A stretch of 39,757 nt of DNA from Streptosporangiaceae bacterium (GCA_030038015.1 JASHPR010000385.1:1-39757), one strand, 5' to 3'; shown: positions 7,876 to 39,468, numbered from the stretch's first letter. Made by a program: numbers and translations. Notes: generated from the letters alone by a model not told the origin.

Positions 7876-8421
7876 ATGCGCGAGATCGGGTACGCGGTAA
7901 GGGGATTCCTCACGGTCCGCAAGGGCTCCATGCGCGTGCCCCTGAGGGGGTCGCTGGCGCTCGGCGCGGATCGGGACTCCGGCCTGTTCACCGGGGACCT
8001 CAGCCTCGACCCGTCCACCATCAGCCGGACGGCCTTTGGCGCCAGCCTCTTCAGCGCTACCGTCCAGATTGCGGCCGAATCCCCCGTCATCGGCGTCGTC
8101 GACCACGAGGGCCGGGTGTTCGCGACGGTCATGGTGGACGCGGTCATAGCTGCTGCCCACGCCGCCGGGCGTACATTGATCAGCGGCTGTTCCTGCCGCA
8201 CGTCCGAGCATGCCATCGTGCCGCTGCGCTCTAAGCCTGGTTTCAGCCTGGAGCAGGGCGGCCGCCTGGTCGGCAGCTACCGCCGGCCGCCGTTCACCGG
8301 GTGCGGATGGGTCACTCCGATTGTCAACCTGCTGGTCGCCGGCCCGGGAAACGCCGTCGTCATCGATCTCATCCCGGTCACGCCCGGCGCAGGGTGTCCC
8401 GCAACGCCTCGAGCGCGGTGA
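7876..8421 (+). CDS. hypothetical protein (181 aa), beta-rich
   Basis: No family recognised. The ORF begins MREIGYAVRGFLTVRKGSM after a GAGGGGACGTTC ribosome-binding sequence and has the composition of a real protein: alternating hydrophobic strands (SRTAFGASLFSATVQIAAE, SPVIGVVDHEGRVFATVMV) suggest a barrel- or lipocalin-like beta fold. No signal peptide or membrane helix is evident. Two cysteines occur close together (GCSC), with a third later. Its last 44 bp overlap the 3' end of the convergent epimerase gene. It is probably monocistronic; function unknown. Confidence 0.6.
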   Translation: MREIGYAVRGFLTVRKGSMRVPLRGSLALGADRDSGLFTGDLSLDPSTISRTAFGASLFSATVQIAAESPVIGVVDHEGRVFATVMVDAVIAAAHAAGRTLISGCSCRTSEHAIVPLRSKPGFSLEQGGRLVGSYRRPPFTGCGWVTPIVNLLVAGPGNAVVIDLIPVTPGAGCPATPRAR

Positions 8422-9385: not shown

Positions 9386-9442
9386 CGCGGACAGCATATG
9401 ACGGCTGCCATCGGGCAGCTGGCCGATCACCGCTCGCGACGA

Positions 9443-9477
9443 GGGCCGAAGGTCCCGGCAGAAGGGACGACCGGCCG
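9443..9477. promoter_or_regulatory. tandem DosR/DevR-like boxes between the epimerase and WS/DGAT genes
   Basis: Box 1 (9443-9456) is GGGCCGAAGGTCCC, a full match to the GGGNC-N4-GNCCC core of the actinobacterial DosR box. Box 2 (9464-9477) is GGGACGACCGGCCG, with one mismatch in the last position. Their centres are 21 bp apart, two helical turns. In M. tuberculosis the WS/DGAT gene tgs1 is a DosR-regulon member, so the position in front of a WS/DGAT gene is meaningful. The GC-rich background makes single matches common. Confidence 0.5.
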
Positions 9478-9590
9478 GGGCGAGCCGGAAACCGCCCGGC
9501 TTACCCTCCAATAAGGACAAGAATGTACCCGGCCGGCCGGCCCAGCGCGGCCGGGCGGCGACATGGGTGCTACCCAGCAAAGGGGGCATC

Positions 9591-15338: not shown

Positions 15339-15389
15339 ACATGATCATAACGCCCTCTGCGAGGCGCATGGGTGGTGTGGAGGGGTTCG

Positions 15390-16502
15390 ATGAGCGAAAT
15401 TCGCGGAGAACAGCCAGATCACTGGCTGGCACTTAAGTCCCCTGGTTCCGGCGGCTCCAGCGGGTGCCGCATAGAGAGCGTGGGCGTGAAGCTGCCTTCC
15501 CGCAGGCTTACGACCAGGGACCTGATGGGCCGGACCAGCCACCGCACCCGTATCCAGCTGGAGCGGCTGACCGGCATCCACGAACGTCACGTCGTCGGGC
15601 CGGGCGAGAACTCCTTCACCCTCGCCGCCGGGGCTGCCCGTGACTGCCTGGCACATTCACAGCGTCAGGCGTCGGACATCGAGATGCTGATCAACACGAG
15701 CATCACCCGGTCCAGGGGCCGGTCCTCGCAGTCGTTCGAGCCCCCGCTCAGCCTGTACGTCAAGCAGGCGATCGGCGCGCCGCAGGCGGTGAACTTCGAT
15801 CTCTCCAACGCGTGCGCCGGCATGCTTACCGGGGTGTTCATCCTCCAGGACTGCATCACCCGGGGTGAGATCAGCTGCGGCATGGTGGTTTCCGGCGAGT
15901 ACATCTCCCACCTGAGCTGGAACGCGGCGAGGCAGATCCGCTCCCTGTTCAGCAAGCAGCTCGCATCACTGACGCTCGGTGACGCGGGCGCCGCCGTGAT
16001 CGTGGAACGCGCGCCCGACGGCGTCGCTGGCATCGACGTCATCGGCTTCACGACGCTCGCCGGGCACAGCCGGCTGTGCCTCGCCTTCCCCAGCACCGTG
16101 GGCCCGGGCGCTCAGATGTACACCAAGTCCAGGACGCTGCAGAAGGTGGCAATCGAGGACATGGCGCCGCTGGTCGCCGAGGTGATCGGCGAAGCCGGGA
16201 TCGACCTGGCCGACATCGACTACCTGATCCCGCATCAGACCTCTGCCCGGGCCATCCGCCAGGGCACGGAGGCATTCGCCCGGCGTCTCGGCGCCACGCC
16301 GAAGCATGTGGTCGTCAACCTGGAGGAGTACGGCAACACCTCGTCGACAACGCTGTTCGTGGCACTCCACAAGTACCTCGAGGAGCAGCGGATCCAAAAG
16401 GGAGACCGGGTGATGCTGCTGGCGCTCGCCTCCGGCATCGAGATCGGCATGGCCATACTCACCATCGATAGCCAGGTGGAGCACTATGGGCGCACACATT
16501 GA
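15390..16502 (+). CDS. 3-oxoacyl-ACP synthase III (KAS III, FabH-like)
   Basis: A 370-residue thiolase-fold condensing enzyme, predicted to join an acyl-CoA primer with a malonyl extender or another acyl group. The full triad is visible: Cys142 (NACAG), His282 (PHQTS) and Asn316 (YGNTS). It is longer than housekeeping FabH (~320 aa) because of an N-terminal leader. The start at 15390 follows GGAGGGG; an in-frame ATG 18 bp upstream is less well placed. Its last 17 bp overlap the next ketosynthase-like gene, so the pair is co-translated and may form a heterodimer. The setting (hydrolases, exporter, no fatty-acid synthase genes) suggests specialised acyl product formation rather than primary fatty-acid synthesis. 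Confidence 0.92.
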   Translation: MSEIRGEQPDHWLALKSPGSGGSSGCRIESVGVKLPSRRLTTRDLMGRTSHRTRIQLERLTGIHERHVVGPGENSFTLAAGAARDCLAHSQRQASDIEMLINTSITRSRGRSSQSFEPPLSLYVKQAIGAPQAVNFDLSNACAGMLTGVFILQDCITRGEISCGMVVSGEYISHLSWNAARQIRSLFSKQLASLTLGDAGAAVIVERAPDGVAGIDVIGFTTLAGHSRLCLAFPSTVGPGAQMYTKSRTLQKVAIEDMAPLVAEVIGEAGIDLADIDYLIPHQTSARAIRQGTEAFARRLGATPKHVVVNLEEYGNTSSTTLFVALHKYLEEQRIQKGDRVMLLALASGIEIGMAILTIDSQVEHYGRTH

Positions 16503-17409
16503 AGCCGCCAGCGCGCTGGCCAGCCACGGATTGCGCAAGCCAACCGCGCGGCGTCTTGCCGATGCCGCCGCGCGAGCCTGCCTCGCGCAGGCAGGAAGAA
16601 AGCCCGGCGATGTCGACATGCTGATCAACGCCGGTGTCTACCGGGAAGACAGCATGGGCGAGCCGGCGCTCGCCGCCCTCATACAGGAGGACATCGGGGC
16701 CAACCTGGGCCAGCCGCCGATCGGAGGGCAGGGCACCTTCTCGTTCGACCTCATGAACGGCACCTGCGGCGTGATCAGCGCCATCCAGGTTGAGACGGGC
16801 TTCCTGCGTTCCGGCGTCATCCGGCTCGGCGCGATCGTGGCCAGCGACGTCGAACCGAATCTCAAGGATCCGGGAACTGCCCCCTTCCGGCCGGCCGGCG
16901 GCGCAATGCTCCTCGGCTGGGATGACAGCCCGGCCGGGTTCACCGATTTCTACGAGGAGACATTTCCCGAGTACGAGGATCTGTTCGTCAGCGGGCTGGC
17001 GTGGCAGGAGCGGCACGGGCTCCGGGTCCCGCGGCAAGCAGCCGGCCGGCACCAGATGGTCATTGACTCCAAACCCGGGTACCAAGGCCGTCTTACCGAC
17101 TGCGCCGAGGAGGCGACCCGCCGCTTCCTGCGCCGGCTGGGGATGGACATGAGCGAAATCGACCTGCTCGTCCCTGCTCCCTCCGTCCCGGACTTCCTGG
17201 ACCCGCTGCGGGTAAGACTGGGCATCCCGGGGGACCGAGTCGCCTATGTAGCAGAAGGCCTGGAGATGGCCTACAGCACCGGGCCCATCGCCGCACTGCA
17301 GGCGGCCCTCAAGTCGGGCCGTCTGCGCGATGCCCGGAACACCCTCATGGTCGCGGCCGGGGCGGGAATCACGGTCGCCCTCGCCCTGTACCGGCAGACA
17401 CCGCCTTGA
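16486..17409 (+). CDS. degenerate KAS III-like protein
   Basis: A 307-residue thiolase-fold protein paired with the active KAS III. A cysteine sits at the nucleophile position (Cys94, in MNGTCGVIS), but the histidine region reads VPAPSVPD instead of PHQ, and the asparagine region reads AYSTGPIAA. The first ~45 residues of a normal KAS III are missing. Canonical Claisen condensation by this protein alone is therefore unlikely. The 17-bp overlap with the preceding gene and their shared fold suggest an obligate partner, as in the PqsBC heterodimer, where one subunit has lost catalytic residues. An acyl-transfer or product-shaping role is an inference. Confidence 0.82.
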   Translation: MGAHIEAASALASHGLRKPTARRLADAAARACLAQAGRKPGDVDMLINAGVYREDSMGEPALAALIQEDIGANLGQPPIGGQGTFSFDLMNGTCGVISAIQVETGFLRSGVIRLGAIVASDVEPNLKDPGTAPFRPAGGAMLLGWDDSPAGFTDFYEETFPEYEDLFVSGLAWQERHGLRVPRQAAGRHQMVIDSKPGYQGRLTDCAEEATRRFLRRLGMDMSEIDLLVPAPSVPDFLDPLRVRLGIPGDRVAYVAEGLEMAYSTGPIAALQAALKSGRLRDARNTLMVAAGAGITVALALYRQTPP

Positions 17410-17413
17410 GCGG

Positions 17414-18442
17414 ATGACGAAGATGAACCGCACGGCGCGGTCACTGATCGCTGCGGGGGCCCCGGCTGCCGGTTTTGCCGCCCTCGCCGCGAATCCCACG
17501 GTCAGGCAGGAGGCGCGGCGGATCGGCCGGTTCGCCCGGCCGCTACGGCGCAGCGTGACCCGGGCGCCGCTGCCGCCATGCCTCCCGCCCGGCCGCGTGA
17601 TCAACCTGCCCGGCCGTGGCGAGGTCTTCGTGCGCGACTCCGGCGGCCTCCGCGGGGGTCCCGCCGTGCTGCTCCTGCACGGCTGGACCGCCAGCGCTGA
17701 CCTCAACTTCTTCCCGGCCTACGACTCGCTCGCGAAGTCTTACCGGGTCATCGCGCCTGACCTGCGGGGGCACGGGCGCGGGTTGCGGTCAGCCGAACCG
17801 TTCAGCCTCGAAGACTGCGCCGACGACGCCGCCGCGCTCCTGGACCAGCTCGGGGCCCAGCATGTGATCGTCGTCGGATACTCGATGGGCGGCGCGGTCG
17901 GGCTGCTGCTGGCCCGGCGGCATCCCGGCAGGGTGGAGGCTCTGGTCATGCAGGCCACGGCGCTCGAATGGCGCCAGAAGGCCCGCGAGCGGATGGTCTG
18001 GCGCCTGCTGTCAGTGCTTGAGCTAAGCCTGCGGTTCGGTGCGGGCGCCGGCCTTGTCGACCGGGTCCTTCGCCAGGCGATCGAGGAGTCGCCCGAGCTC
18101 GACGTCTACCGGCCGTGGCTGGCCGCAGAATTCCGCCGCGGGCTGACGCGCGAACTCGGCGGCGCAGGACGAGCGCTGAGCCGTTATGACGCGCGGCCGT
18201 GGGCGGGCCGGCTGGGCCTCCCCGCGGTCATGCTCATCACGACCGGAGACCGGCTGGTGCGCCCTGCTAAGCAGCAAGCACTCGCCGAAGCGCTGCATGC
18301 GCAAGTGATCGAGGCTGACGCCGACCACGACCTCCCGCTGGTCAAGAGCGACGAGTATGCGCGCCTGACCAAGCTCGCCGTCGATACCGCCGCCGCGGCC
18401 GCTGGGCTCAAGGGCCCCGGCAGGTTCCTGCGCCGAGGTTAG
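17414..18442 (+). CDS. alpha/beta hydrolase
   Basis: A 342-residue serine hydrolase with a complete triad: Ser157 (GYSMGG), Asp279 (TTGDRLV) and His305 (DADHDL). The segment LLLHGWTAS supplies the oxyanion hole, and LRGHGRG follows. The first ~60 residues contain a weak hydrophobic alanine-rich stretch (SLIAAGAPAAGFAALAA), perhaps a membrane-associated leader. The start is ATG 17414 or 17423, immediately after the KAS-like stop, so the three genes form one operon. It may release or trim the acyl product of the ketosynthase pair. It ends 26 bp before the convergent exporter gene. Confidence 0.9.
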   Translation: MTKMNRTARSLIAAGAPAAGFAALAANPTVRQEARRIGRFARPLRRSVTRAPLPPCLPPGRVINLPGRGEVFVRDSGGLRGGPAVLLLHGWTASADLNFFPAYDSLAKSYRVIAPDLRGHGRGLRSAEPFSLEDCADDAAALLDQLGAQHVIVVGYSMGGAVGLLLARRHPGRVEALVMQATALEWRQKARERMVWRLLSVLELSLRFGAGAGLVDRVLRQAIEESPELDVYRPWLAAEFRRGLTRELGGAGRALSRYDARPWAGRLGLPAVMLITTGDRLVRPAKQQALAEALHAQVIEADADHDLPLVKSDEYARLTKLAVDTAAAAAGLKGPGRFLRRG

Positions 18443-22436: not shown

Positions 22437-22712
22437 CTACCCAGCCGTCCGGCCGCGGCTGAAATCGTCCAGTACCTCCTGGGCCGCGGCGAAGAACCCT
22501 ACCCAGTACCGGTTGCCGAATTCGCCGTCGTTGCCGAGCTCGAAGCTCGCGACGAAGTCGCGCAGCTCATCGACTGTCGCGAAGTCGCGCGCCCAGGTGG
22601 TCCCTTCCTCGCGCCCCCGCCGGTAGTCGTCGGCCTGCTGCGCCTCAACCGTGGCGGCCGGCCTGGCGGGCACCGTCACGGCCGCCGGACTCGGGCGTAT
22701 CGTGCTGCTCAT
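22437..22712 (-). CDS. small acidic hypothetical protein at the end of the Por-Nfn operon
   Basis: A 91-residue protein of no recognised family. The first ~30 residues are low-complexity and proline/alanine-rich. The remainder, from DDYRRGREEGTTWARDFAT through VDELRDFVASFELG to YWVGFFAAAQEVLDDF, is predicted helical with many aromatic and acidic residues. The start at ATG 22712 has a strong AAAGGAGG ribosome-binding site inside the 3' end of the upstream oxidoreductase gene (68-bp overlap), so it is translated as part of that operon. A small accessory or stabilising subunit of the oxidoreductase is possible but unproven. Confidence 0.65.
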   Translation of the reverse strand: MSSTIRPSPAAVTVPARPAATVEAQQADDYRRGREEGTTWARDFATVDELRDFVASFELGNDGEFGNRYWVGFFAAAQEVLDDFSRGRTAG

Positions 22713-24132
22713 CGCGGCCTCCTTTCTCTGCGGCACGCTGCTGCAGGTACTCATGGACGGCTGTCGCCGCCCTGCGGCCCGCGCCCATGGCCAGGATCAC
22801 CGTTGCGGCACCGGTGACGATATCGCCGCCCGCGTACACACCCTCACGGCTCGTAGCGCCCGTCTGCTCGTCGGCGACGATGCAGCCGTGCCGGTCGACG
22901 TCGAGGCCCTGAGTCGTCTTCGGGACAAGGGGGTTCGGGTTGGTGCCGAGGGCGATGACGACGACATCGGCTTCCATCGTGAACTCCGAGCCGGGCACCG
23001 GGACCGGACGCCGGCGGCCCGATTCGTCCGGCTCGCCGAGTTCGGTGCGGATGCACTCGATGCCCCGGACCCACCCGTTGTCGTCGCCGAGGAAGCGCGT
23101 CGGGACGGTGAGCCAGTCGAAGATCACGCCCTCCTCGCGCGCCCGCTCGTAGTCCTCCGCCCGGGCGCCCTTTTCCCGTTCGGAGCGGCGGTACACGATG
23201 TGGGCCTCCTCGGCGCCGAGGCGGACCGAGCAGCGCGCCGCGTCCATCGCGGTGTCGCCGGCGCCGATGATCGCGGCCCGTCTTGGCTGACGGATGGGCG
23301 TGTCGTACTCGGGGAACGAGTACGCGTGCATCAGGTTGACGCGGGTGAGGAACTCGTTGGCCGAGTAGATGCCCTTGAGGTTTTCCCCGGGGACGTTCAT
23401 GAAGATCGGTGAGCCCGCGCCCGTTCCGACAAAGACCGCCGAGTAGCCGAGCTCGTCGATGAGCTGCTCGATGGTGACCGTCTTGCCGATGATGACGTCG
23501 CGGACAAATTCGACGCCGAGCGCCTTGAGGTGCGCCACGTCTTCGTCGACGATCTCCTTCGGCAGGCGGTACTGGGGGATCCCGTAGCGCAGGACGCCGC
23601 CGAACGCGTGCAGCGCCTCGAAGACCGTCACGGGATAGCCGAGCTGCGCGAGGTCGCTGGCCGCCGTGAGGCCGGCCGGGCCCGAGCCGACGATCGCGAT
23701 CTTCTGGTCGCGCCACACCTCGGCCGCGGCGGTCTCACCGCCGTTCCCGTGGCTGCGCTCCCAGTCGGCGACAAAGCGCTCCAGCCGGCCGATGCCCACG
23801 GGGTCCTGGTGGGGGAAGAGCACGCAGCGCAACTCGCACTGGTGCTCGACCGGGCAGACCCGGCCGCAGATCGCGGGCAGCAGGTTGCGGCGGCGGATCG
23901 CCGCGGCGGCGCCCCCGAAGTCCCCCAGCGCGACGTGGCGCACGAAGTCGCGGATGGGCACGTTGACCGGGCAGCCCTGCTCGCACACGGGGTCCTGGCA
24001 GACAAGGCACCGCCGGGCCTCGGCGATGGCCCGCTCCACGGTGTAGCCCTCGGCGACCTCGTCCCAGCTGCGCCGGCGTTCCTGCGGATCCCGGCACGGC
24101 ATAGCGGTCTTGTGCGGATAGACGATGGGCAT
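22645..24132 (-). CDS. NfnB/GltD-like NAD(P)-dependent oxidoreductase, large subunit
   Basis: A 495-residue flavoprotein of the glutamate-synthase small-subunit/NfnB/SudA family. Eight N-terminal cysteines (42, 45, 50, 54 and 89, 93, 99, 103) can hold two [4Fe-4S] clusters. The FAD motif GSGPAG lies at 149-154 and a second Rossmann motif (IGAGDTAMDAAR) near 285 binds NADPH. No GltB gene is nearby, and the preceding gene encodes the NfnA-type partner, so it is more likely a ferredoxin:NAD(P) transhydrogenase than glutamate synthase. It starts 4 bp after the NfnA-like stop, with a strong GGAGGTAA. Its C-terminal tail after EYLQQRA is charged and poorly structured and overlaps the small downstream gene. 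Confidence 0.9.
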   Translation of the reverse strand: MPIVYPHKTAMPCRDPQERRRSWDEVAEGYTVERAIAEARRCLVCQDPVCEQGCPVNVPIRDFVRHVALGDFGGAAAAIRRRNLLPAICGRVCPVEHQCELRCVLFPHQDPVGIGRLERFVADWERSHGNGGETAAAEVWRDQKIAIVGSGPAGLTAASDLAQLGYPVTVFEALHAFGGVLRYGIPQYRLPKEIVDEDVAHLKALGVEFVRDVIIGKTVTIEQLIDELGYSAVFVGTGAGSPIFMNVPGENLKGIYSANEFLTRVNLMHAYSFPEYDTPIRQPRRAAIIGAGDTAMDAARCSVRLGAEEAHIVYRRSEREKGARAEDYERAREEGVIFDWLTVPTRFLGDDNGWVRGIECIRTELGEPDESGRRRPVPVPGSEFTMEADVVVIALGTNPNPLVPKTTQGLDVDRHGCIVADEQTGATSREGVYAGGDIVTGAATVILAMGAGRRAATAVHEYLQQRAAEKGGRDEQHDTPESGGRDGARQAGRHG

Positions 24133-24136
24133 GGCG

Positions 24137-24973
24137 TTACCTCCGTACTCCCGCTAGCTCGCAGGCCACGCGTTCCTGCTCCCGGTAGATCGTCAGGCGG
24201 GAATCTGCCTCGTCGAAGTCCACCTGGTGGGCATCGAAGAACGGGCCGTCCACGCAGGCGAAGAGCGTCTTGCCGCCGACCGTGACGCGGCAGCCGCCGC
24301 ACATGCCGGTGCCGTCCACCATCAGCGGGTCGAGGGAGACCATGGCGGGCAGGCCACGGAGCCGTGTCGTGTTCGCGACGGCGCGCATCATCGGCATCGG
24401 GCCCACGGCATAGCAGTGGGTGAACCCGGCGCCAGCGTCCAGCAGTTCCTCCAGGCGGCCGGTGACCAGGCCGTGGTAGCCGAGGGAGCCGTCGTCGGTG
24501 CACACGTGCACCTCGTCGCTCTCGGTGGCCAGCAGGTCGGCGAGGATCACCAGGCCGCGGGTGCGGGCGCCGACGATGCACGAGACCCGAACGCCGCGCG
24601 AGCGCAGCGCGCGGGCCAGCGGGAACACCGCGCCCGTGCCGAAGCCGCCGCCGATCAGCACGGCATGGCCTTCTGCCGGGAGCGGCACCTCCTGGCCGAG
24701 CGGGCCGACGAAGTCGAGGAACTCCTCCCCCGGCTGCATCGCGTTGACCAGCGCGGTCGTGCGACCCACCTCCTGGACGACGATCGTGATCGTGCCCGTG
24801 GCCCGGCTGAAGTCGGTGATGCTGATCGGGATCCGCTCGCCGTGCTCGGTGACCCGCAGGATCACGAACTGGCCGGGCGCCGCGTTGCGCACCACGAGCG
24901 GGGCGTGGACCACGAAGAGCTTGGTGATGTCCGTCAGGTCGCGCTTCTCGATGATCCGTGCGGTGGTGTCCAT
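24137..24973 (-). CDS. NfnA/SudB-like FAD and [2Fe-2S] subunit
   Basis: A 278-residue ferredoxin-reductase-fold protein of the dihydroorotate dehydrogenase electron-transfer/sulfide dehydrogenase family. The N-terminal FAD domain contains RIPISITDFS, the NAD domain starts at GGGFGTGAVFPLARAL (~108-123), and the C-terminal cluster segment DGTGMCGGCRV has Cys225 and Cys228, with Cys240 following. Three cysteines plus an aspartate match the unusual Asp(Cys)3 [2Fe-2S] ligation described for Pyrococcus sulfide dehydrogenase. It would pair with the next gene product to move electrons between reduced ferredoxin and NAD(H)/NADP(H). The start at 24973, with GGAGTGACC upstream, lies 11 bp after the Por alpha-beta stop. 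Confidence 0.91.
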   Translation of the reverse strand: MDTTARIIEKRDLTDITKLFVVHAPLVVRNAAPGQFVILRVTEHGERIPISITDFSRATGTITIVVQEVGRTTALVNAMQPGEEFLDFVGPLGQEVPLPAEGHAVLIGGGFGTGAVFPLARALRSRGVRVSCIVGARTRGLVILADLLATESDEVHVCTDDGSLGYHGLVTGRLEELLDAGAGFTHCYAVGPMPMMRAVANTTRLRGLPAMVSLDPLMVDGTGMCGGCRVTVGGKTLFACVDGPFFDAHQVDFDEADSRLTIYREQERVACELAGVRR

Positions 24974-24984
24974 GGTCACTCCAC

Positions 24985-27273
24985 TCACAGCAGGGGGTGC
25001 TCGTCCCTCGCCTTGAGTCGCTGCCAGCGGCGCTCCACTTCGGCCTCGATCGAGGCGAGCGTCGCTTCGTTGCCGGGCTGGCAGAGGTGCTTCGTCTTGC
25101 CCATCAGCTTGAGCCAGTCGGCGACCGGCACGCGCCGCCCGATCGGCTCCGGGTCGTAGGTGATGTGGGTTATGCCCCGCTCGATCTCGTACAGCGGGAA
25201 GAAGCATGAGTCGACCGCGGCCTGGACGACCTCGACGCCGACCCGGTCCTCGGTCTTCCAGTTGAGCGGGCAGGAGATCAGCACCTTCCCGTAGACCATG
25301 CCCTCATGGCTCGCGTACCACTGGGCCTTGGCGGCCTTCGCCACCAGGTCGTCGGGGTAGCCCTCGACGCCGGTGAACACGTACGGGATGTTGGTCGCGG
25401 CCATGATCTGCGGGGTGTCCTTGTGGTGGAAGGACTTGCCCAGCTCGGCAGGCCCCACGTGGCTGGTCGACGTCATGTGGCCGAGCGGCGTCGAGTAGCT
25501 GAGCTGGCTGCCCGTGTTCATGTAGCCCTCGTTGTCGTACTCGACGACGATCATCCTGTGGTTCCGGAGCGCGGCGCCGATCGCGGTGCCCATGCCGATG
25601 TCCATGCCGCCGTCGCCGGTGACCATCACGAACGTGATGTCCTCGCCGGCCGGCAGCTCGCCGCGGCGAATTCGCTCGTGGAACACCTCGACGAGCCCGC
25701 TCAGCGCGCCGGCGCCGTTCTGGAACAGGTTGTGCACGTAGGTGATGCGGTGCGAGGTGCAGGGGTAGCCGGTGGAGACGACCATCGCGCAGCCCGTCTG
25801 GTAGAGCACGACCACGTCACCCTCGATGCCGCGCAGGAACTGGTCCAGTGCGGGGAAGATGCCGCACCCAGGGCATGCGCCGTGGCCGGGCACGACTCGC
25901 TTCGGCTTGGCGGCGAGCTGCCAGTAGGGCGGCGCCTCGACCTTGAGCCTGCCGTCCGGGCCCGGCTCCACCTTGAGCAGTCCGCTGGTCATCTCCTCAC
26001 GGGTCAGCGGCGGCGTGCCGCGGCGTGGCCGCGACTTGGCGGGGTCGCCGGGCTCAACGCCGTAGTAGTCGAACGGCACCTTGACCGCGCCCCGCTCGGC
26101 GGCCTCGGCCGCGAGCCGGAAGAACGCCTCGGCGTCCTCCGCGTAGAAATCGCGCCCGCCGAGGCCGTAGACACGGCTCAGGCACAGGGTGCGGTTTCCC
26201 TGGTCGTCTTTCAGCGCGGACTTCACCTCGTGCGCGAGGGTGGCGCCGTGCGCCCCGTAGGAGCTGGAGCGCTCGCCGATGACGACCGCCCGGACGCCGC
26301 GCAGCGCCTGCCGGATCGCGTCCGCTGGGAACGGGCGGATCACGTTGGGGCTGACGACGCCGGCCCGGATGCCCTCGGCACGCAGCCGGTCCGCAACGTC
26401 CTTCGCGGTCTCCGCGGCCGAGTTGAGCAGGAAGACCGCGATCTCCGCGTCATCCATCCGGTACTCGTCGACGAGGTCGTAATGCCGGCCGCTCAGCTCC
26501 TCGTACTCGGCGAAGACCTCCCGGAACGCGGGCAGCGCGGCGTCCATCGCCCGCTCAAGCTGGTACTTGTTGTTGATCAGGTCGGGGTCGTTCATGTACG
26601 GCCCGATCGTCACCGGGTGCCGCGGGTCAAGCGCGGTCACCACGTCCGGCAGCGGGCCGAGCCAGTCCCGCACGGTGGCGTCGTCGGCGAAGGTCGAGAC
26701 GCGGCGCTTCTGGTGGCTGGTGAAGAAGCCGTCGAAGGCCACGATCGCCGGCAGCCGCACCTCGGCACGCTCGGCGACGCGCAGCGCGATGAGGTTCATG
26801 TCGTAGACCGCCTGCGGATCACGAGCCAGGAGGACCAGCCAGCCGGTGCTCAGCGCGTAGTAGACGTCGGAGTGGTCACCGCGGATGTCGAGCGGCCCGC
26901 TGACCGTGCGCGTGGCGAGGTCGAGCAGCATCGGATAGCGCGTGCCCGACTGCACCGGCAGCTCCTCCAGCGAGTACAGCAGGCCCTGGGCGCTGGTCGC
27001 GTTGAAGACGCGGCCGCCGCCGGTCGCGGCGCCGTAGCAGATGCCAGCCGCGCTGTGCTCGCCGTCGGCCGGCACCATCACGATGTCGTGCTCGCCCGCG
27101 GCCTTCATCTCGTCGAGCAGCTCGGCGATCTCCGTCGACGGGGTGATCGGGTAGTAGCCCATCAGGTGGAAGTCGATCTGCTTCGCGGACAGCGCCGCCA
27201 TCTCGTTGCCGGCGCGGAACCCGGTAACCTGCTCGGCCCGGCGGGTCGTCGGCCTCGGCGGTGCGACAGTCAT
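24985..27273 (-). CDS. 2-oxoacid:ferredoxin oxidoreductase, fused alpha-beta subunit
   Basis: A 762-residue fusion of the PorA-like alpha domain (residues ~1-400, with YYPITPSTEIAELLDEM and PADGEHSAAG) and the thiamine-diphosphate-binding PorB-like beta domain (~450-740). The beta part has CPGC and further cysteines for a [4Fe-4S] cluster and the TPP motif GDGG (553-556) followed by DNEGYMNTGSQ, the form typical of pyruvate-type enzymes. The reaction is oxidative decarboxylation of pyruvate (or a related 2-oxoacid) to acyl-CoA with reduction of ferredoxin, or its reverse. The start overlaps the gamma-delta stop by one base (TGATG), showing tight coupling. This is an oxygen-sensitive, anaerobic-type enzyme in an otherwise aerobic gene neighbourhood. 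Confidence 0.95.
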   Translation of the reverse strand: MTVAPPRPTTRRAEQVTGFRAGNEMAALSAKQIDFHLMGYYPITPSTEIAELLDEMKAAGEHDIVMVPADGEHSAAGICYGAATGGGRVFNATSAQGLLYSLEELPVQSGTRYPMLLDLATRTVSGPLDIRGDHSDVYYALSTGWLVLLARDPQAVYDMNLIALRVAERAEVRLPAIVAFDGFFTSHQKRRVSTFADDATVRDWLGPLPDVVTALDPRHPVTIGPYMNDPDLINNKYQLERAMDAALPAFREVFAEYEELSGRHYDLVDEYRMDDAEIAVFLLNSAAETAKDVADRLRAEGIRAGVVSPNVIRPFPADAIRQALRGVRAVVIGERSSSYGAHGATLAHEVKSALKDDQGNRTLCLSRVYGLGGRDFYAEDAEAFFRLAAEAAERGAVKVPFDYYGVEPGDPAKSRPRRGTPPLTREEMTSGLLKVEPGPDGRLKVEAPPYWQLAAKPKRVVPGHGACPGCGIFPALDQFLRGIEGDVVVLYQTGCAMVVSTGYPCTSHRITYVHNLFQNGAGALSGLVEVFHERIRRGELPAGEDITFVMVTGDGGMDIGMGTAIGAALRNHRMIVVEYDNEGYMNTGSQLSYSTPLGHMTSTSHVGPAELGKSFHHKDTPQIMAATNIPYVFTGVEGYPDDLVAKAAKAQWYASHEGMVYGKVLISCPLNWKTEDRVGVEVVQAAVDSCFFPLYEIERGITHITYDPEPIGRRVPVADWLKLMGKTKHLCQPGNEATLASIEAEVERRWQRLKARDEHPLL

Positions 27274-28319
27274 CAGGCGTCCCCCCTCTCGCGGTCAAGC
27301 CACGCGAAGAGCGGGACGCGATGCGCCTCGGCCCAGCCGTCCTCCTCTCGGAGCTCGGCGAGCGCGCCGGTCGGGCAGGCGTCGACACACTTCAGGCAGC
27401 CCTTGCAGTAGTTGTAGTCGATGCCGAGCAGCCGCACCGCGGGCTGGCCGTCGCCCTCGTCGGACCAGACGAAGCACAGGTCGGGGCAGACGATGTCGCA
27501 GATCCCGCAGTGCGTGCACGCGTCGGGGTCGAAGGCGGGGAGGAAGCCCTGCCGCGACGTGCTGAGGTTCTTGACAATGCTGTTGCCCACGTCAAGGATG
27601 GCGCCACCGATCGGCGCGTCGAGGTACCCGAACGCGGGTGCGGTTCGCTGCACGGGCCGGCCGGGGTCGCCGGGCTCCGCCGGCCAGGTCCTGCTCCGCA
27701 CCTCACGGTAGCCGCGGTCGAACGTGCGCAGGTTCGCCTCGACGAGGTGCGCGTAGCGGGCCGAGAAGCTGGCGCGGATCGACTCCTTCACCACGGCGGG
27801 GTCGAGGAACGGACAGGCGCGGGCCACCGCGCCGAGCATCGCGGTGTTCACGCGCGTCTTCTCCTCGATCGCGATACCGAGCGCGTCGAGCACCGCCACC
27901 GTGCCAGAGCGCAGGCCCAGCGCCTCGCGGACCTGCTCGGGGGCCGAGCGCGTGTTCATGATCAGCGTGCCGCTGGCGGTCAGGCCGGCGGCCACGTCGA
28001 ACGAGTGCGTCAGTGCCTCGTGGAAAACCGCCACCACCTGCGGCCTCTCGATCGGGCTGCTGGTGCGGACCTCACGATCGCCTGGGCAGAAGCGCACAAA
28101 CGACTTGACCGGCGTGCCTTTCTTCTCCGAGCCGTACGAGGAGAAGTGCGCACCGTTGAAGCCCTGGCGCAGGACCCCGGCCTCGGCAAGGATCTTCCCG
28201 GCCAGGTGCGCGCCGAGCCCGCCAATCGACTCGAGGCGAATGCCGAAGAAGCCATCATCACCGGACCCGGGAAGCGGATCCGTCCTGGTGTCCACCGGAG
28301 TTGGCGCCCGCGTTGACAT
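27273..28319 (-). CDS. 2-oxoacid:ferredoxin oxidoreductase, fused gamma-delta subunit
   Basis: A 348-residue fusion of a PorG-like gamma domain (residues ~20-210, with GIGGLGAHLAGKILAEAG in variant form and GSEKKGTPVKSFVRF) and a C-terminal PorD-like 2x[4Fe-4S] ferredoxin. The ferredoxin cysteines are 268/271/274/278 and 305/308/311/315. Together with the alpha-beta polypeptide it makes a two-subunit, four-domain complex. The start at 28319 has GGAGGTGTCC upstream; longer in-frame ORFs extend into the intergenic region and are not supported. It is the first gene of the operon, behind DosR-like boxes. Confidence 0.94.
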   Translation of the reverse strand: MSTRAPTPVDTRTDPLPGSGDDGFFGIRLESIGGLGAHLAGKILAEAGVLRQGFNGAHFSSYGSEKKGTPVKSFVRFCPGDREVRTSSPIERPQVVAVFHEALTHSFDVAAGLTASGTLIMNTRSAPEQVREALGLRSGTVAVLDALGIAIEEKTRVNTAMLGAVARACPFLDPAVVKESIRASFSARYAHLVEANLRTFDRGYREVRSRTWPAEPGDPGRPVQRTAPAFGYLDAPIGGAILDVGNSIVKNLSTSRQGFLPAFDPDACTHCGICDIVCPDLCFVWSDEGDGQPAVRLLGIDYNYCKGCLKCVDACPTGALAELREEDGWAEAHRVPLFAWLDRERGDA

Positions 28320-28430
28320 TGGACACCTCCGTGATCCACGTATTCGCTTGCCTCTTGCGTTCGTTCGGTCCAGCCCTCTGGATCGCTTGCAAACACCTCT
28401 CACGCTGCGCGGCGTCCATGACCCTGGCCA

Positions 28431-28467
28431 GGGCCGAAAGGTGATGCTGTCCCGGGCCGAAAGTCCT
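28431..28467. promoter_or_regulatory. tandem DosR-like boxes in front of the Por-Nfn operon
   Basis: GGGCCGAAAG occurs twice, at 28431 and 28454, 23 bp apart. The second copy continues to GGGCCGAAAGTCCT (28454-28467), a near-complete DosR core; the first has only the left half-site (GGGCCGAAAGGTGA). They lie 112-148 bp upstream of the gamma-delta start. Repetition at about two helical turns is as expected for cooperative DosR sites. Confidence 0.5.
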
Positions 28468-28644
28468 GGCCGGTGGCCGCGAAGCCGCTCGGCCGGGGCC
28501 GAGCCGGTAATCTCGGCTGGCCATGATCGCGTCATAGCGCTCCCCAAGGATCTGGATGACGACATATGGGGCGAACGGGTCGCCGACGGCCGTGCGAGCT
28601 TGCTGCACCGCTCGCGGAATAAACGGGGATGCAGGTGCCGGCCA

Positions 28645-28681
28645 TGGATCAAGGTCCCGGGCGGTGCGGGACCAAAGACCC
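28645..28681. promoter_or_regulatory. DosR-like box with weaker partner, between Por and flavoprotein genes
   Basis: GGGACCAAAGACCC at 28668-28681 matches the DosR core fully, with an A-rich centre. A weaker copy, TGGATCAAGGTCCC (two mismatches), starts 23 bp upstream at 28645. The full box lies 181 bp before the flavoprotein start and could serve either direction. Confidence 0.5.
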
Positions 28682-28861
28682 TTCCCCGCATCGGCGCAGA
28701 CGGCCAAGGCTCGGTCGGGTACACAATCCTCGGGCTCTCGCCGCTGGCATCTGGCAGACGGCGGCTGCGGAGGTCATCAATCACCAGTTCGGCCGCCAGA
28801 TCCTTGCTCTCGGCCGGCTGGTCCCTGGGCACGCGAAGAGAAGCAGATTGGGAGTATCCGA

Positions 28862-30394
28862 ATGTCCGAAGTTTCCGGAACCTGGGACGAGGAAGCCGAC
28901 GTCGTCGTCGTGGGGTACGGGTTCGCCGGGGCGGCGACGGCGATCGCTGCGCACGACGAGGGCGCCGACGTGCTCCTCTTGGAGAAGGCGCCCGAGGAGC
29001 ACAAGGGCGGCAACAGCCGCGTCTCGGCCAACATCGTTTTCTGGCCCAACGACGTGGAGAAGGCCAAGACCTACTTCCGGGCCTTGACCGGCCCGTACAC
29101 GGACAACATCTCCGACAAGATGATCGAGGTCTGGGCAGAGGAGATGCACGCCAACCGGGCGTGGCTCGAACGACTCGGCATGCAGCCCATAGGCATCGGC
29201 GGCGCTGAGTTCCCCGAGTTCCCGGGTTCGGACTGCGTAGAGATGCTCGTCAATGCCGGCCAGCTCCCCGGATCCGGCCGCCAGGAGTTCACCCTCCGGC
29301 AGACGCCCGCGCAGCTCGGGCAGATGCTGGGGGGCGAACGGCTGTGGAAGGGAGTCACCGAGCCGGCGCTCGATGCTCGCAAGATCCGGAGGATGTACGG
29401 CACGGCGGCCGTCCACCTGGTGGAGAGCAGCGGCGCAGTCGCCGGCGTCCTCGCCGATCGGCAGGGAAAGCGCATCGCGATCAAGGCGGAGCGGGCCGTC
29501 GTGCTCACGTGCGGGGGGTTCGAGAACAACCCGACGATGGTGCGCACCTACGTCAACGCCTTGCCCTGCATCTACCCCACCGGGACTCCGTACAACACCG
29601 GCGATGGCGTCCGCATGGCGCAGGAGGTCGGTGCCGACCTCTGGCACATGAGCAACATCGCCGGCCCCGAGCTCTTCTTCAAGGCGCCAGAGCTCCCCGT
29701 GGCCCGCTGGATCAACCTCCCGCATGCCGGCAGCTACATCTTCGTGGCCGCCGACGGCAAGCGGTTCATAGCCGAAGGCGACCAGTGCATGGGAACCGAC
29801 CGGCACGGGAAGCTCAACTACCACGGCATGTGGATGCAGCAGACAGCACCGATGCCGGTCCACCTGATCTTCGATGAGAGCTTCCGCGCCTCAGGATGCA
29901 TCGGCGACTCGTTCTGCTGCTGGGACGTGGTCCACGGCAACCGATACAACTGGAGCGACGACAACCTCCGCGAGGTCGAAAGGGGCTGGATCAAGCGGGC
30001 GACTTCCATCCGCGATCTGGCGGCTCTCATCGGCCTCCCCCCTGATGTGCTTGAAGCGACCGTGACGCGGTACAACACGTTCGTGGCGCAGGGCGCCGAC
30101 GCAGACTTCGGGCGGAACCCGGCATGGATCGCGGCGATCGAGACGCCCCCGTTCTACGCGATGGAGCTGACACCCAGTTTCGTGAACACCCAAGGAGGCC
30201 CCCGGCGCAACGAGAACGCGCAGGTGATCGGGCTCGACGGCCGGCCGGTCCCGCGGCTCTACTCGGCCGGTGAGCTCGGCTCGATCTACGCCTACAACTA
30301 CAACGCGGGTGGCAACATCGGCGAATGCTTCGCGTTCGGCCGGATCGCCGGGCGCAACGCGGCACGAGAGAAGCCGCTCGAGCTTGCGGGCTAG
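28862..30394 (+). CDS. FAD-dependent oxidoreductase (fumarate reductase/KstD-like)
   Basis: A 510-residue FAD_binding_2 flavoprotein. The FAD motif GYGFAG lies near residues 17-22, followed by a conserved LLLEKAPEEHKGGNS segment. The C-terminus carries the second FAD-contacting segment LYSAGELGSIYAYNYNAGGN. The family includes soluble fumarate/urocanate reductases and 3-ketosteroid dehydrogenases; the active-site residues needed to choose could not be aligned with certainty. No signal peptide, heme-binding motif or membrane anchor is seen, so it is cytoplasmic and would use a soluble electron donor. The start at 28862 follows GGGAGTATCCGA. It is divergent from the Por-Nfn operon, with DosR-like boxes between, which would fit a reductase used at low oxygen. 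Confidence 0.9.
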   Translation: MSEVSGTWDEEADVVVVGYGFAGAATAIAAHDEGADVLLLEKAPEEHKGGNSRVSANIVFWPNDVEKAKTYFRALTGPYTDNISDKMIEVWAEEMHANRAWLERLGMQPIGIGGAEFPEFPGSDCVEMLVNAGQLPGSGRQEFTLRQTPAQLGQMLGGERLWKGVTEPALDARKIRRMYGTAAVHLVESSGAVAGVLADRQGKRIAIKAERAVVLTCGGFENNPTMVRTYVNALPCIYPTGTPYNTGDGVRMAQEVGADLWHMSNIAGPELFFKAPELPVARWINLPHAGSYIFVAADGKRFIAEGDQCMGTDRHGKLNYHGMWMQQTAPMPVHLIFDESFRASGCIGDSFCCWDVVHGNRYNWSDDNLREVERGWIKRATSIRDLAALIGLPPDVLEATVTRYNTFVAQGADADFGRNPAWIAAIETPPFYAMELTPSFVNTQGGPRRNENAQVIGLDGRPVPRLYSAGELGSIYAYNYNAGGNIGECFAFGRIAGRNAAREKPLELAG

Positions 30395-30822
30395 GCCCCC
30401 GGGCCACCCGGCAGGCTGGGCCTCAACGTTCCGGGCCGCGAGAATGCCCACCGCCCATGCACCAGCACCCACCAAAGATCCCGTTGCTGCGCCCGGCCAG
30501 CTCTGCGAAGGCATCCCACGAGGAAGGTCGAGAGGCCGAACCGTGTGGCCGTTCCCGCAGCGCCGCACGAGACCCTCCCGATCCGCAGCGGCGCCGGGCG
30601 CAGCATCGCCGTGCCGATCAGCCCGGCGACCAGGCTGATCACCCGGGACTATGGGACCGCGGCGGTGGGACTTACGGCCCTTGGTAGCGGCGGGTGGCCG
30701 GATGATGCTGACGCGAGCGCTGCGGTGACGGCGTGGCCATCGACTGGCTGACCGCCACGGGTTCGCAGGCATGCCGTGGCCGGCGCAGCGTGTCCGTGCC
30801 TTGGCAAGTTCGGGGGTTCCCG
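30395..30822. other. 428-bp intergenic region upstream of the HMGS-like operon
   Basis: Short open frames exist on both strands, but none has a good ribosome-binding site or recognisable domain. The region contains a tandem pair of DosR-like boxes at 30645-30680. No RNA gene was recognised. Confidence 0.5.
30645..30680. promoter_or_regulatory. tandem DosR-like boxes upstream of the HMGS-like/thiolase-like/DUF35 operon
   Basis: GGGACTTACGGCCC (30667-30680) followed by TT matches the fuller mycobacterial DosR form GGGACTTNNGNCCC completely. A second copy, GGGACTATGGGACC (30645-30658), has one core mismatch. The spacing is 22 bp centre to centre. The strong box lies 142 bp before the first gene start. 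Confidence 0.55.
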
Positions 30823-31905
30823 ATGAAGAGCGGAATAGTGGCTTACGGGGTGTCTGTTCCGTACCGCCGGATCGATGTGAAGGCAATCCTTGAGGTGTGG
30901 GGCAACTCCAGCCCCGAAGTCCTGGAGCACCTTGGCCTGACCGAGCGCGGGGTCCTGTTTTTTGATGAGGACACCACGACGCTGGCGATCGAGGCAGCCC
31001 GGAACGCTCTGCAGGGGGGCGGGGTGGCGGGCGGCGACCTGGAGGCGGTGTACCTGGGGACGGGCACCAACGCCTGGGCCTCAAACCCGTCATCGACACT
31101 CGTGGCTGAAGCCGTGGGTGCTGGTCCGGGCCTGATCTGCTGTGATTTGCAGTTTTCGGGGAAGTCGGGGACGTCGGCGATGCAGGCGCTGCTGGGGCTG
31201 ACGGAGTCTGGCCTGATCTCGCGTGGGCTGGCGATCGGCGCGGACACACTCAACCGGCATGTCGCGCCGGGCGAACTGTATGAGTACACGGCGTCGGCCG
31301 GCGCGGCCGCGTTTGTTATCGGGGCGGAGGATGTGGCCGCGCGGGTCCTCGGCATGCACTCGCACATGAGCTCGCTCAATGACTGGTTCCGCACCGAGGG
31401 TGAGCGCTATATCAGGACCGCGTCGTCCAACATCCCCGACCTGCTCCGGCTGGGGCTGGCCGAGCACATCGTGCCCGCGGTCCTGGCGCTGAACGGCAAG
31501 CTGGGGCTTGCGCCTCAGGATTACGCGCACGCGGTGTTCCAGCAGCCCTACGGTTTCGTGCCTTTCATGCTGGCCGAGGCGCTGGGCCTGAAACCGGACC
31601 AGGTAGCCCTCGGTGCCGTCTCAGGCAAGATCGGCGACTGCGGCGCGGCGTCTGCCCTGCTCGGGCTCGCCAATGTGCTGGACAACGCCGAACCGGGTGA
31701 CAAGGTCTTGCTGGCTTCCTACGGCTTCGGCGCCGGCAGCGACGCCTTCGCGCTGGAGATAACGGGCCACATCAGCCGGCTCCGGCAGAACGGGCCCACC
31801 GTGCACGACCTCCTCGCCCGCAAGGAAATGGTCAGCTATGCCGCCAGCGTGAAGTTTGAGCACAAGTTCCTCAAGCCTGATCACCCTTCGGGCCCGTGGA
31901 CCTGA
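30823..31905 (+). CDS. HMG-CoA synthase-like protein lacking canonical catalytic residues
   Basis: A 360-residue thiolase-fold protein of the archaeal-type HMG-CoA synthase family, judged from the N-terminus (GIVAYGVSVPYRRID), the GDKVLLASYGFGAGSDAF C-terminal region and the gene order. The active site is degraded: where archaeal HMGS has FACKAGT, this reads FSGKSGT, with Gly113 for the cysteine; the FHQP histidine is Gln240 (FQQP); and the glutamate segment GSES is GTGT. HMG-CoA synthesis by the known mechanism is therefore unlikely. It is followed by a thiolase-like and a DUF35 gene, the same trio that forms a complex in archaea, so a structural or altered catalytic role in that complex is inferred. 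The start follows CGGGGGTTCCCG. Confidence 0.82.
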   Translation: MKSGIVAYGVSVPYRRIDVKAILEVWGNSSPEVLEHLGLTERGVLFFDEDTTTLAIEAARNALQGGGVAGGDLEAVYLGTGTNAWASNPSSTLVAEAVGAGPGLICCDLQFSGKSGTSAMQALLGLTESGLISRGLAIGADTLNRHVAPGELYEYTASAGAAAFVIGAEDVAARVLGMHSHMSSLNDWFRTEGERYIRTASSNIPDLLRLGLAEHIVPAVLALNGKLGLAPQDYAHAVFQQPYGFVPFMLAEALGLKPDQVALGAVSGKIGDCGAASALLGLANVLDNAEPGDKVLLASYGFGAGSDAFALEITGHISRLRQNGPTVHDLLARKEMVSYAASVKFEHKFLKPDHPSGPWT

Positions 31906-31927
31906 CCAGGAAAGGAAGGGGAGGGTC

Positions 31928-33157
31928 ATGGCCACCGTCAACAGGGTAGCGATCGTTGGGGTCGGCCAGTCGCAGCGCAACTCGGCCTACAACAAGAAAG
32001 GGGGCTGGAAGGGCGCCGTCGTCGAGGCGGTTTATGAGGCGCTCCAGGATGCCCGCATGGACCCTGACGAGCTCGACGGCGGGGTGGTGAACTACCACGG
32101 TGAGGCCTACATGGGTTACGGCGGCATCGGCCCGACACTGGCCGAGGAACTGGGCATATCACCGGTCGGCATCATTCCCATCGTCGCCCAGTGCACCGGC
32201 GGAGGGATCACCGCCCTCACCGCCTGGACACAGATCGTCTCGGGCGTGCACCGCAGGGTGCTATGCCTGGCGTTCGACGTAGACGACAACGTCCACATCC
32301 TCGACAACTACAACGTCTCCAACGACAGTGACTGGGACTACATGACCGGCATCGGCCATGAGGAAGCCGCCGGCCTGCGCGAGCAGGCCTACTACCGCAA
32401 GTACGGCTATGACCTGAGCGTGGCCGCGCGCTGGCATCAGCAGTGCTACTGGTATGCCAACCGCAACCCGCGGGCAGCCTGCTACCAGGTGCCCTCGCCG
32501 CCGATGCAGGTCCTGACCCGCGAGGTGCTGCCGGGCAGCAACATCCCCTCCCTGGAAGCCCACCGGGAGGTCGCATTCACGCTCGGCGCGGCGGCGTGGA
32601 TCATGGTTCCCGAGCAGGACGCGGCGGGATACCCGCACAAGCCCGTATACATGACCGGCGGCGAATACGCGGTTTCCCCCGGGCTGATCTCCAAGAACTA
32701 TCACTATCCGCGGCCCGGGCTGGAAAGCGCTGACCTCACTGAGCTCCCCGCGACGCGCGTCGCCGCCCGTAAGGCCTACGCGATGGCAGGCATCTCCCCG
32801 CGCGACATCGACCTCGCCCAGACCTACTCACCCGGGCTTTCCGGCGTGCTGCAACTGGAGGCGCTAGGGATCTGCGAAACCGGCACCGGCGGCAAGTTCG
32901 TCCTCGATGGAGGCACTGCCATCGACGGCCCATGCCCCACCAACACCAACGGTGGGCAGATCGCTTTCAGCCTGAGCTCCGGGTCCGATGTCGGCGACAT
33001 GCTCATCGAATCGGTCCAGCAACTGCGCGGAGAGGTCGAACTGCCCGACCGGCAGGTCAAAGACGCCAAAGTCGCCGCCTGCGCTGGTTATCAGGCCATC
33101 GGCAGCGGCAGCACCGTCACCGTGCTGACCAACCAGGAAGGACGAGCTGATGTCTGA
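31928..33157 (+). CDS. thiolase-like protein (DUF35-associated, SCP-x/Ltp2-type)
   Basis: A 409-residue thiolase-superfamily protein. The nucleophile cysteine is present at Cys89 (VAQCTGGG), and the NxxGG substrate loop is seen as TNTNGG near 339-343. The usual second and third catalytic elements are altered: the HD-type histidine region reads AQTYSPGLSG (Tyr300), and the C-terminal segment reads CAGYQAIGSGS instead of a cysteine/histidine-glycine motif. Such divergent thiolases with DUF35 partners include the steroid side-chain retro-aldolase Ltp2 and the BbsAB thiolase, so C-C bond cleavage or retro-aldol chemistry on a CoA ester is as likely as thiolysis. It begins 22 bp after the HMGS-like stop and overlaps the DUF35 gene by 8 bp. 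Confidence 0.87.
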   Translation: MATVNRVAIVGVGQSQRNSAYNKKGGWKGAVVEAVYEALQDARMDPDELDGGVVNYHGEAYMGYGGIGPTLAEELGISPVGIIPIVAQCTGGGITALTAWTQIVSGVHRRVLCLAFDVDDNVHILDNYNVSNDSDWDYMTGIGHEEAAGLREQAYYRKYGYDLSVAARWHQQCYWYANRNPRAACYQVPSPPMQVLTREVLPGSNIPSLEAHREVAFTLGAAAWIMVPEQDAAGYPHKPVYMTGGEYAVSPGLISKNYHYPRPGLESADLTELPATRVAARKAYAMAGISPRDIDLAQTYSPGLSGVLQLEALGICETGTGGKFVLDGGTAIDGPCPTNTNGGQIAFSLSSGSDVGDMLIESVQQLRGEVELPDRQVKDAKVAACAGYQAIGSGSTVTVLTNQEGRADV

Positions 33158-33599
33158 GTTCGCATCCGAGTGGATCGACCATGACATGATCTTCACCTCC
33201 TTCCGGGCATGGCGGGAACGGCTCGGCCGCTACCGCCTGGAAGGCTCCAAATGCGCAGGCTGTGGTGAGATCTGGTTCCCCAGGCGGCACGGGGTATGCC
33301 CGAAATGCCACAGCCGGGATCTTGCACCCTACCAGTGCCCGCACACCGGAGAAGTGATCGAGTTCATCATCAAGGACAACCCGTTCACCGACCTGTCCGG
33401 CACCCAGTACCACGGGCGCGGGAAACGAGTCATCGCCATCATCAGGCTCGATGACGGGCTGCACGTGGCCGCGGACCTTGAGGACTGCTCACCCGCCGAC
33501 GTTCACCCGGGAATGCGGGTTAAGCTCAGCACCCGCAAATGGATGCGCGAATCAAACAGCAACTGGCAGTACGGATACAAATTCACGCCAGCCCGATAG
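33150..33599 (+). CDS. DUF35 zinc-ribbon/OB-fold acyl-CoA-binding protein
   Basis: A 149-residue protein with a rubredoxin-like zinc ribbon (Cys35, Cys38, Cys50, Cys53) followed by an OB-fold region (VIEFIIKDNPFTDL through RVIAIIRLDDGLHVAADL). DUF35 proteins bind thiolase-like partners and shape or bridge the CoA channel, as in the archaeal thiolase-HMGS complex, Ltp2-ChsH2 and BbsAB. The start overlaps the thiolase-like stop by 8 bp, implying stoichiometric synthesis and complex formation. All zinc ligands are intact, unlike the catalytic residues of the HMGS-like partner. Confidence 0.93.
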   Translation: MSEFASEWIDHDMIFTSFRAWRERLGRYRLEGSKCAGCGEIWFPRRHGVCPKCHSRDLAPYQCPHTGEVIEFIIKDNPFTDLSGTQYHGRGKRVIAIIRLDDGLHVAADLEDCSPADVHPGMRVKLSTRKWMRESNSNWQYGYKFTPAR

Positions 33600-38874: not shown

Positions 38875-38949
38875 CCTCAGGCTTGCGCTGCTCACAGCGG
38901 CTCGCACGCTGTCCTGCGGCGGCAAGCAGCCTGTTGCAGCGCTGACGGT

Positions 38950-39300
38950 TCAGCACGTCAGGTGCAAGATGGCGTTGGTGTCCTTGGTGGTCTGGGTCAG
39001 CACGCCGATCGCCTGCTCCGTGGGCAGGATGACAAGGTCGACGTCGCGGCGGCGGGCTTCTTCGCGGACTTCCCGCATCACCGGCAGAGCGCCATCAGCG
39101 CCGGTGCCGATCACCAGCCGGCGGCACTGCCAGGGGATGTCCTCAGCGACTGATAGCGGGGTGTGCCCGTACGCGCCGCGGAACTTGCGGGAGGGGCCCT
39201 TCTTGCGCTTGCGGATCTTCCCGCGGTCGATGACCAGGTCGCGGTCATAGGTCATGCCGTCGACTCGCACCGAACCGAACGAGTAGTCGGAGAATCGCAT
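38950..39300 (-). CDS. Mth938/AAMDC-like domain protein
   Basis: A 116-residue protein of the Mth938/DUF498 fold: FSDYSFGSVRVDGMTYDRDL, then LVIGTGADGALPV and the DLVILPTEQAIGVL segment with a final CONH-rich tail DTNAILHLTC (segment boundaries approximate). The family includes human NDUFAF3-like and AAMDC proteins and has no established bacterial function. The start at 39300 gives the normal family length; an ATG seven codons upstream also exists. It is convergent with the ABC exporter. Confidence 0.85.
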   Translation of the reverse strand: MRFSDYSFGSVRVDGMTYDRDLVIDRGKIRKRKKGPSRKFRGAYGHTPLSVAEDIPWQCRRLVIGTGADGALPVMREVREEARRRDVDLVILPTEQAIGVLTQTTKDTNAILHLTC

Positions 39301-39468
39301 ACGAAGACTGTTACCCGCCATGCGGCCGTGTCAGCCAGGGCCTTGCAGAGTTTATGTCACGGCACCGCGGGGCCCGGCGGCCCGCCTGCCCCGGTCCAGT
39401 GCCTTGCGCATCTGTCCTGACAGTACTGGATCGACCCGGGGTTATGGTGGTCGCGGCGGTGGTGGGGG

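Follow-up and report, generated by a model that had tools for sequence, protein, structure and literature searches.

A putative PhlACB/MucABC-class acyltransferase trio with an altered acceptor site in Streptosporangiaceae

We questioned what reaction could be served by a three-gene locus of a Streptosporangiaceae bacterium in which an HMG-CoA synthase (HMGS)-like, a thiolase-like and a DUF35 protein are encoded side by side and the HMGS-like protein has lost its catalytic residues. The locus lies on the + strand of a 39,757-nucleotide stretch of DNA (hereafter the window). Searches with phmmer, together with trees for the first two products and Pfam for the third, assigned a PhlA-like (dead HMG-CoA-synthase-like) subunit of 360 amino acids (30823..31905), a PhlC-like (thiolase-fold) catalytic subunit of 409 amino acids (31928..33157), and a PhlB-like DUF35 (zinc ribbon and OB fold) subunit of 149 amino acids (33150..33599). 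All three frames are intact, with ATG starts and stop codons. The HMGS-like and thiolase-like genes are 22 bp apart and the thiolase-like and DUF35 genes overlap by 8 bp, so that the trio reads as one operon; a promoter and terminator scan gave nothing above chance. The contiguous order HMGS-like, thiolase-like, DUF35 (A-C-B) is identical in DAPG loci and on a Priestia plasmid. The initial annotation had likened the gene order and assembly to the archaeal thiolase-HMGS-DUF35 complex (6ESQ), and this resemblance holds, with all three folds in common and the A subunits ~40% identical.

In alignments to the active archaeal HMGS of 6ESQ, a G79-T-G81-T segment, Gly113 and Gln240 of the HMGS-like protein fall on the Glu, Cys and His positions, respectively (codons of Gly81, 31063..31065; Gly113, 31159..31161; Gln240, 31540..31542; all +), just as had been read from the sequence beforehand. 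Whereas the archaeal complex keeps the HMGS Cys, His and Glu, the window trio has lost them and keeps only the Cys of the thiolase motif. Neither Cys106 nor Cys107 aligns with the active site, so that the alignment named beforehand as a refutation of the initial annotation did not materialize; PhlA, too, has a counterpart of Cys106, located seven residues ahead of the Gly. The HMGS-like protein nevertheless passes NCBIfam NF003274 (hydroxymethylglutaryl-CoA synthase) with 343 bits against a cut-off of 244, so automatic annotation would name the first gene HMG-CoA synthase. That reading of the trio is almost certainly wrong, since the HMGS Glu, Cys and His and both thiolase His are replaced and TIGR00748 is missed (301 against a cut-off of 353); an HMGS/mevalonate complex was ruled out on Gly81, Gly113 and Gln240. 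The analysis of the trio therefore corrects an automatic name earned without catalytic residues.

The same losses are found in PhlA. The HMGS-like subunit matched PhlA best in phmmer (5m3k_A, E 4e-89), followed by 9skh_A (E 6e-86), 6esq_I (E 1e-71) and 9vbo_A of MucABC (E 5e-37), and it is ~45% identical to PhlA, which was also the first match found with an AlphaFold2 model of moderate quality (pLDDT 65). PhlA carries Gly115 at the HMGS cysteine, the counterpart of Gly113, and Cys83 at the glutamate, where the window has Gly81 (PMC6392133); its residue at the His position is likewise Gln (VFQQ). Since PhlA shows these Gly, Gln and Cys-for-Glu losses, the dead HMGS subunit is already documented for the class and is not a new arrangement. 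The idea of an unprecedented combination that calls for a new CoA-ester reaction is thus not supported: solved complexes share an identically dead HMGS subunit, namely PhlACB (5M3K) and CsATase (9SKH), with MucABC (9VBO) forming a related, second known branch. In the A-subunit tree, which takes in MucA on a long branch, the window protein and its close relative are sister to PhlA, the Priestia protein and MucA (90/85), while the active archaeal HMGS lies outside. Of the two roles suggested earlier for the HMGS-like protein, that of a scaffold probably applies, by analogy with PhlACB; that of a second catalytic subunit does not fit this comparison, in which only PhlC residues act in acyl transfer and Cys88 becomes acetylated (PMC6392133).

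The DUF35 subunit points in the same direction. Its zinc ligands had been described as intact, and Cys35, Cys38, Cys50 and Cys53 are indeed all present when the residues are read (Cys35-x2-Cys38 ... Cys50-x2-Cys53, 33252..33308, +). It scores above the cut-offs of Pfam zf-ChsH2 and OB_ChsH2_C and matches PhlB (5m3k_B) with E 3e-30; moreover, its N-terminal tail resembles that of PhlB, whereas the DUF35 protein of 6ESQ has no such tail.

The thiolase-like subunit matches 9skh_I (E 8e-61) and 5m3k_C (E 3e-59) and is ~35% identical to PhlC. As previously claimed, Cys89 is kept (32192..32194, +) and aligns with the PhlC nucleophile Cys88 (PMC6392133), while Tyr300 (32825..32827, +) aligns with PhlC Tyr298 and takes the place of the His of the thiolase HDCF motif. 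The earlier claim had left out that the second thiolase His, that of the GHP motif, is also lost: its position, PhlC His347, is occupied by Leu349 (32972..32974, +), and Leu is kept there in the second genome described below (L041/L048). A chemistry differing from that of both thiolase and HMGS, which had been anticipated, is supported. Much of the PhlC catalytic set is retained, with His57, Cys89, His144, Tyr300, Ser351 and Asp354 corresponding to PhlC His56, Cys88, His144, Tyr298, Ser349 and Asp352. Compared with PhlC, the window protein has Leu349 for His347, Ile124 for Tyr124, Phe217 for Trp211, Gln for Asn87, and QA in place of the Gly384-Gly385 oxyanion loop; the alignment is free of gaps at Leu349 and in the C-terminal loop, whereas the Ile124/Tyr124 and Phe217/Trp211 matches fall in gapped stretches and are less certain. 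The lid region also has a longer loop than the Trp211 lid of PhlC. Since the Priestia protein and MucC keep the His347 position, its loss is, among the proteins compared, peculiar to the window branch. In a C-subunit tree built from sequences other than MucC, the window, Priestia and PhlC proteins form a clade with 100/100 support against all other thiolases, including Ltp2-like proteins, although the order inside this clade is unresolved.

The initial annotation had raised the possibility of a retro-aldol or other C-C cleavage acting on CoA esters, with Ltp2-ChsH2 and BbsAB as models; we compared the thiolase-like subunit with these enzymes and with Sal-Shy. The steroid side-chain aldolases Ltp2-ChsH2 (6OK1) and Sal-Shy likewise pair a thiolase fold with a DUF35 partner, and in the alignment Tyr300 occupies the place of the catalytic Tyr in both Ltp2 and Sal. 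In contrast, the window protein has Cys89 where Ltp2 has Gly, and it has neither the YDHF/YDCY motif nor the second acid (Tyr344 in Ltp2). The second genome encodes a genuine Ltp2 (L043; 6ok1_A, E 2e-166) in which Gly, YDHF and Tyr stand where the window protein has Cys89, YSPG and Leu349, which contradicts an Ltp2-type reaction. The benzoylsuccinyl-CoA thiolase BbsAB (7PXP) also combines a thiolase-like with a DUF35 protein, but the match is weak (E 2e-10) and confined to the C-terminal part, and the BbsB model gave 45.7 bits against a cut-off of 750. To our knowledge, none of Ltp2-ChsH2, Sal-Shy and BbsAB has an HMGS-like subunit. Chemistry of the Ltp2, Sal or BbsAB kind was thus rejected on residues and model scores, and we regard cleavage of this type as quite improbable.

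All three subunits, the A-C-B order and the dead-site residues match PhlACB, and the trio is accordingly assigned, by sequence, to the PhlACB/MucABC class in its broad sense, within which it is divergent. The likeness of PhlACB to the archaeal thiolase/HMGS complex has been noted before (PMC6392133). PpATase (5M3K) and CsATase (9SKH), both PhlACB-type 2,4-diacetylphloroglucinol C-acetyltransferases, share with the window the gene order, the Gly, Gln and missing Glu of PhlA, the Cys nucleophile with His56, His144, Tyr298, Ser349 and Asp352, and the PhlB zinc ribbon with its N-terminal tail; they differ at His347, Tyr124, Asn87, Trp211 and the oxyanion GG, in their shorter lid loop, and in that no phlD was found with the window trio. 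MucABC of Streptococcus macacae (9VBO) shares the dead HMGS-like, thiolase-like and PhlB-type DUF35 subunits, but its A subunit is only 26% identical to that of the window, MucC keeps the His347 position, and the muc genes lie with NRPS/PKS genes. For the class to which MucABC belongs, acetylation of tetramic acids at C-3 has been proposed as the role in the mutanocyclin/reutericyclin pathway (PMC10161427). A Phl/Muc-type trio also lies directly upstream of NRPS genes on the Priestia megaterium plasmid CP109765 (L002:11529-20629), and the muc/rtc clusters likewise adjoin NRPS genes (PMC10161427); the Priestia locus is possibly a 3-acyl tetramate-type cluster.

Taken together, these comparisons favor the trio being a PhlACB/MucABC-like multi-component acyltransferase that transfers an acyl group via Cys89 to a carbon nucleophile, with the HMGS-like protein in a structural role; by analogy with the characterized complexes, we put the probability of this reading at roughly 65%. 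PhlACB assembles as (A2C2)2B4, with A and C dimers held together via PhlB (PMC6392133), and from this enzyme we infer the assembly, the acyl-cysteine and the C-acylation proposed here. DUF35 subunits would clamp dimers of the thiolase fold to dimers of the dead HMGS fold. The thiolase-like subunit would bind an acyl group in thioester linkage at Cys89, the HMGS-like protein serving structure only, and would then hand this group on to a small molecule, at a carbon nucleophile of the enol or phenol type.

The acceptor side of the active site differs from that of the characterized enzymes, and this counts against the acyltransferase reading. In PpATase and CsATase, Tyr124 and His347 bind and activate the second hydroxyl of the acceptor (PMC6392133, PMC12955522); the H347F variant of PpATase PhlC retains <1 of 44 mU/mg (PMC6392133), and His347 and Tyr124 mutants of CsATase are dead (PMC12955522). 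The window has Leu349 and Ile124 at these essential positions and QA for the oxyanion GG. These features set it apart from the narrow PhlACB family, so that, narrowly defined, the trio is no DAPG acetyltransferase; it must use an acceptor other than a 1,3-dihydroxyarene in the binding mode of PhlC, and, with the His347/Tyr124 side gone, the acceptor or the reaction may be unusual. Further points against the acyltransferase reading are the long branch of the thiolase-like protein in the C-subunit tree (1.46), the failure of its AlphaFold2 model (pLDDT 43), and the genomic setting, with no type III PKS and no PKS or NRPS neighbor to explain a substrate. Type III PKS genes (phlD, PF00195) were absent from both carrier genomes (assemblies 91% and 84% complete) under a search that was positive in control genomes, and this argues against phloroglucinol-type substrates. 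The altered active site suggests, at the level of its residues, a substrate outside those known for the class.

As a further alternative to a CoA-free C-acyltransferase, the trio could be a Claisen or retro-Claisen thiolase that depends on CoA or ACP for condensation or cleavage and has a dead HMGS as its scaffold. The retention of Cys89 and a lid-region loop not shortened as in PhlC would both suit such an enzyme. Downstream of the trio in the second genome (L048:700-5328), moreover, the next genes run in one direction and encode an ACP, a CocE/NonD hydrolase, a phosphotransacetylase, an acetate kinase and a holo-ACP synthase, and these neighbors might point to acyl-ACP or an acetyl compound as donor. 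This hint is weak, however, because the ACP, CocE, Pta, AckA and AcpS genes of the second genome had no DNA match in the window's own genome. Since both thiolase catalytic His (HDCF, GHP) are also lost, having become Tyr300 and Leu349, we consider a Claisen-type enzyme unlikely. Around the window trio, a FAD_binding_2 protein lies ~430 bp upstream (28850-30394, +); it is reductase-like and related to 3-ketosteroid-delta-1-dehydrogenase/flavocytochrome c, but falls short of the cut-off for each NCBIfam model listed. An F420/PPOX-like gene lies downstream. Deducing function from these neighbors was abandoned, as the FAD-binding and F420/PPOX-like genes are not shared with the second genome.

The second carrier is a metagenome-assembled genome of another genus of the same family (UBA9676; G655/G969). 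The two genomes share a block (30809..33599, +) at 85-88% DNA identity that extends from 14 bp upstream of the first ATG through the last stop codon, with different genes on either side. Elsewhere in the half of the window that contains the trio, matches to the second genome are mostly at 67-70% identity, except for a short end piece and a multicopy DUF498-like segment; the latter (38917-39347) matches several G655 contigs at 81-90%, far above the surrounding genes, as a multicopy element. The HMGS-like proteins are 88% identical with the same dead-site residues, so that the replacements do not stem from chance, and Leu349 and the changed oxyanion loop are both conserved. Between the window and the second genome, dN/dS was 0.12 for A, 0.15 for B and about 0.08-0.20 for C, the last from two sequenced pieces because the second genome's C gene is incomplete and split over two contigs; an apparent 160-bp deletion at its thiolase/DUF35 junction coincides with an assembly join (two N) and was left uncounted. 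All three genes are thus under purifying selection among unrelated neighbors. The trio could in principle be a decaying, non-functional remnant, as several catalytic positions are replaced and the genes are very rare in the family. The open, overlapping frames and the dN/dS of roughly 0.08-0.20 between two genera speak against decay, as does the altered C-terminal segment (FSLxSGSDVGDM...AACAGYQAIGSGS), which with 4 differences in 49 residues from the second genome is the best conserved part, and we judge a remnant very improbable.

A survey of how often such degenerate trios occur, called for by the initial annotation, found this one in 2 of the 343 genomes of the family, with neighbors that are not shared between the carriers. 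Both carrier genomes are fragmented assemblies with ~7% contamination, but two separate assemblies from one family make contamination an unlikely source. Viral contigs and phages searched for the trio yielded nothing. Elsewhere, a sample of 396 genomes of the phylum held nothing closer than ~33% identity; the distant actinobacterial relatives lie in frames of mostly 470-630 amino acids in which the HMGS residues are likewise missing, and a dead HMGS-like protein is therefore no rarity in itself. In these phylum relatives (L021-L039), the HMGS Cys and His are replaced throughout; one with a long frame (L030) also matches DUF35, and some of the HMGS-like genes adjoin thiolase genes, the thiolase of L039 having complete thiolase motifs.

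A bolder form of the acyltransferase reading, which is tentative and in our view somewhat doubtful, is that the trio represents a third branch of three-component acyltransferases. Such a branch would have abandoned the His347/Tyr124 site, would use Cys89 with His57, His144 and Tyr300 to acylate or deacylate a carbon of a metabolite that is neither phloroglucinol nor tetramate, and would spread from genome to genome as a stand-alone set of three genes. Biocatalysis places value on CoA-free C-acylation of the Friedel-Crafts type, and the enzymes characterized as active in the studies cited here, including 4 of 8 tested in PMC12955522, all from Pseudomonas or Chromobacterium, share one acceptor pocket. 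The divergent complex of this actinobacterium, its rebuilt acceptor site conserved under selection, is a good candidate for a different acceptor range.

The window holds other loci of note. On the - strand (22645-28832), a 2-oxoacid:ferredoxin oxidoreductase, with its alpha/beta and gamma/delta parts fused in two genes, is followed by two proteins similar to the NfnAB pair, one a DHODB-like FAD/NAD protein and the other GltA-like, which score above the cut-offs of NCBIfam PRK06222 and gltA; these genes are a possible electron-bifurcating set in an actinobacterium. An OleD-like reductase is encoded at 8378-9652. At 15372-18442 (+), a KAS III protein with an intact Cys-His-Asn triad (NACAGM, PHQ, GNTS) is encoded by a gene that overlaps a second KAS III-like gene, seemingly without His and Asn, followed by an alpha/beta hydrolase; this arrangement is reminiscent of the NltA/NltB heterodimers of beta-lactone clusters.
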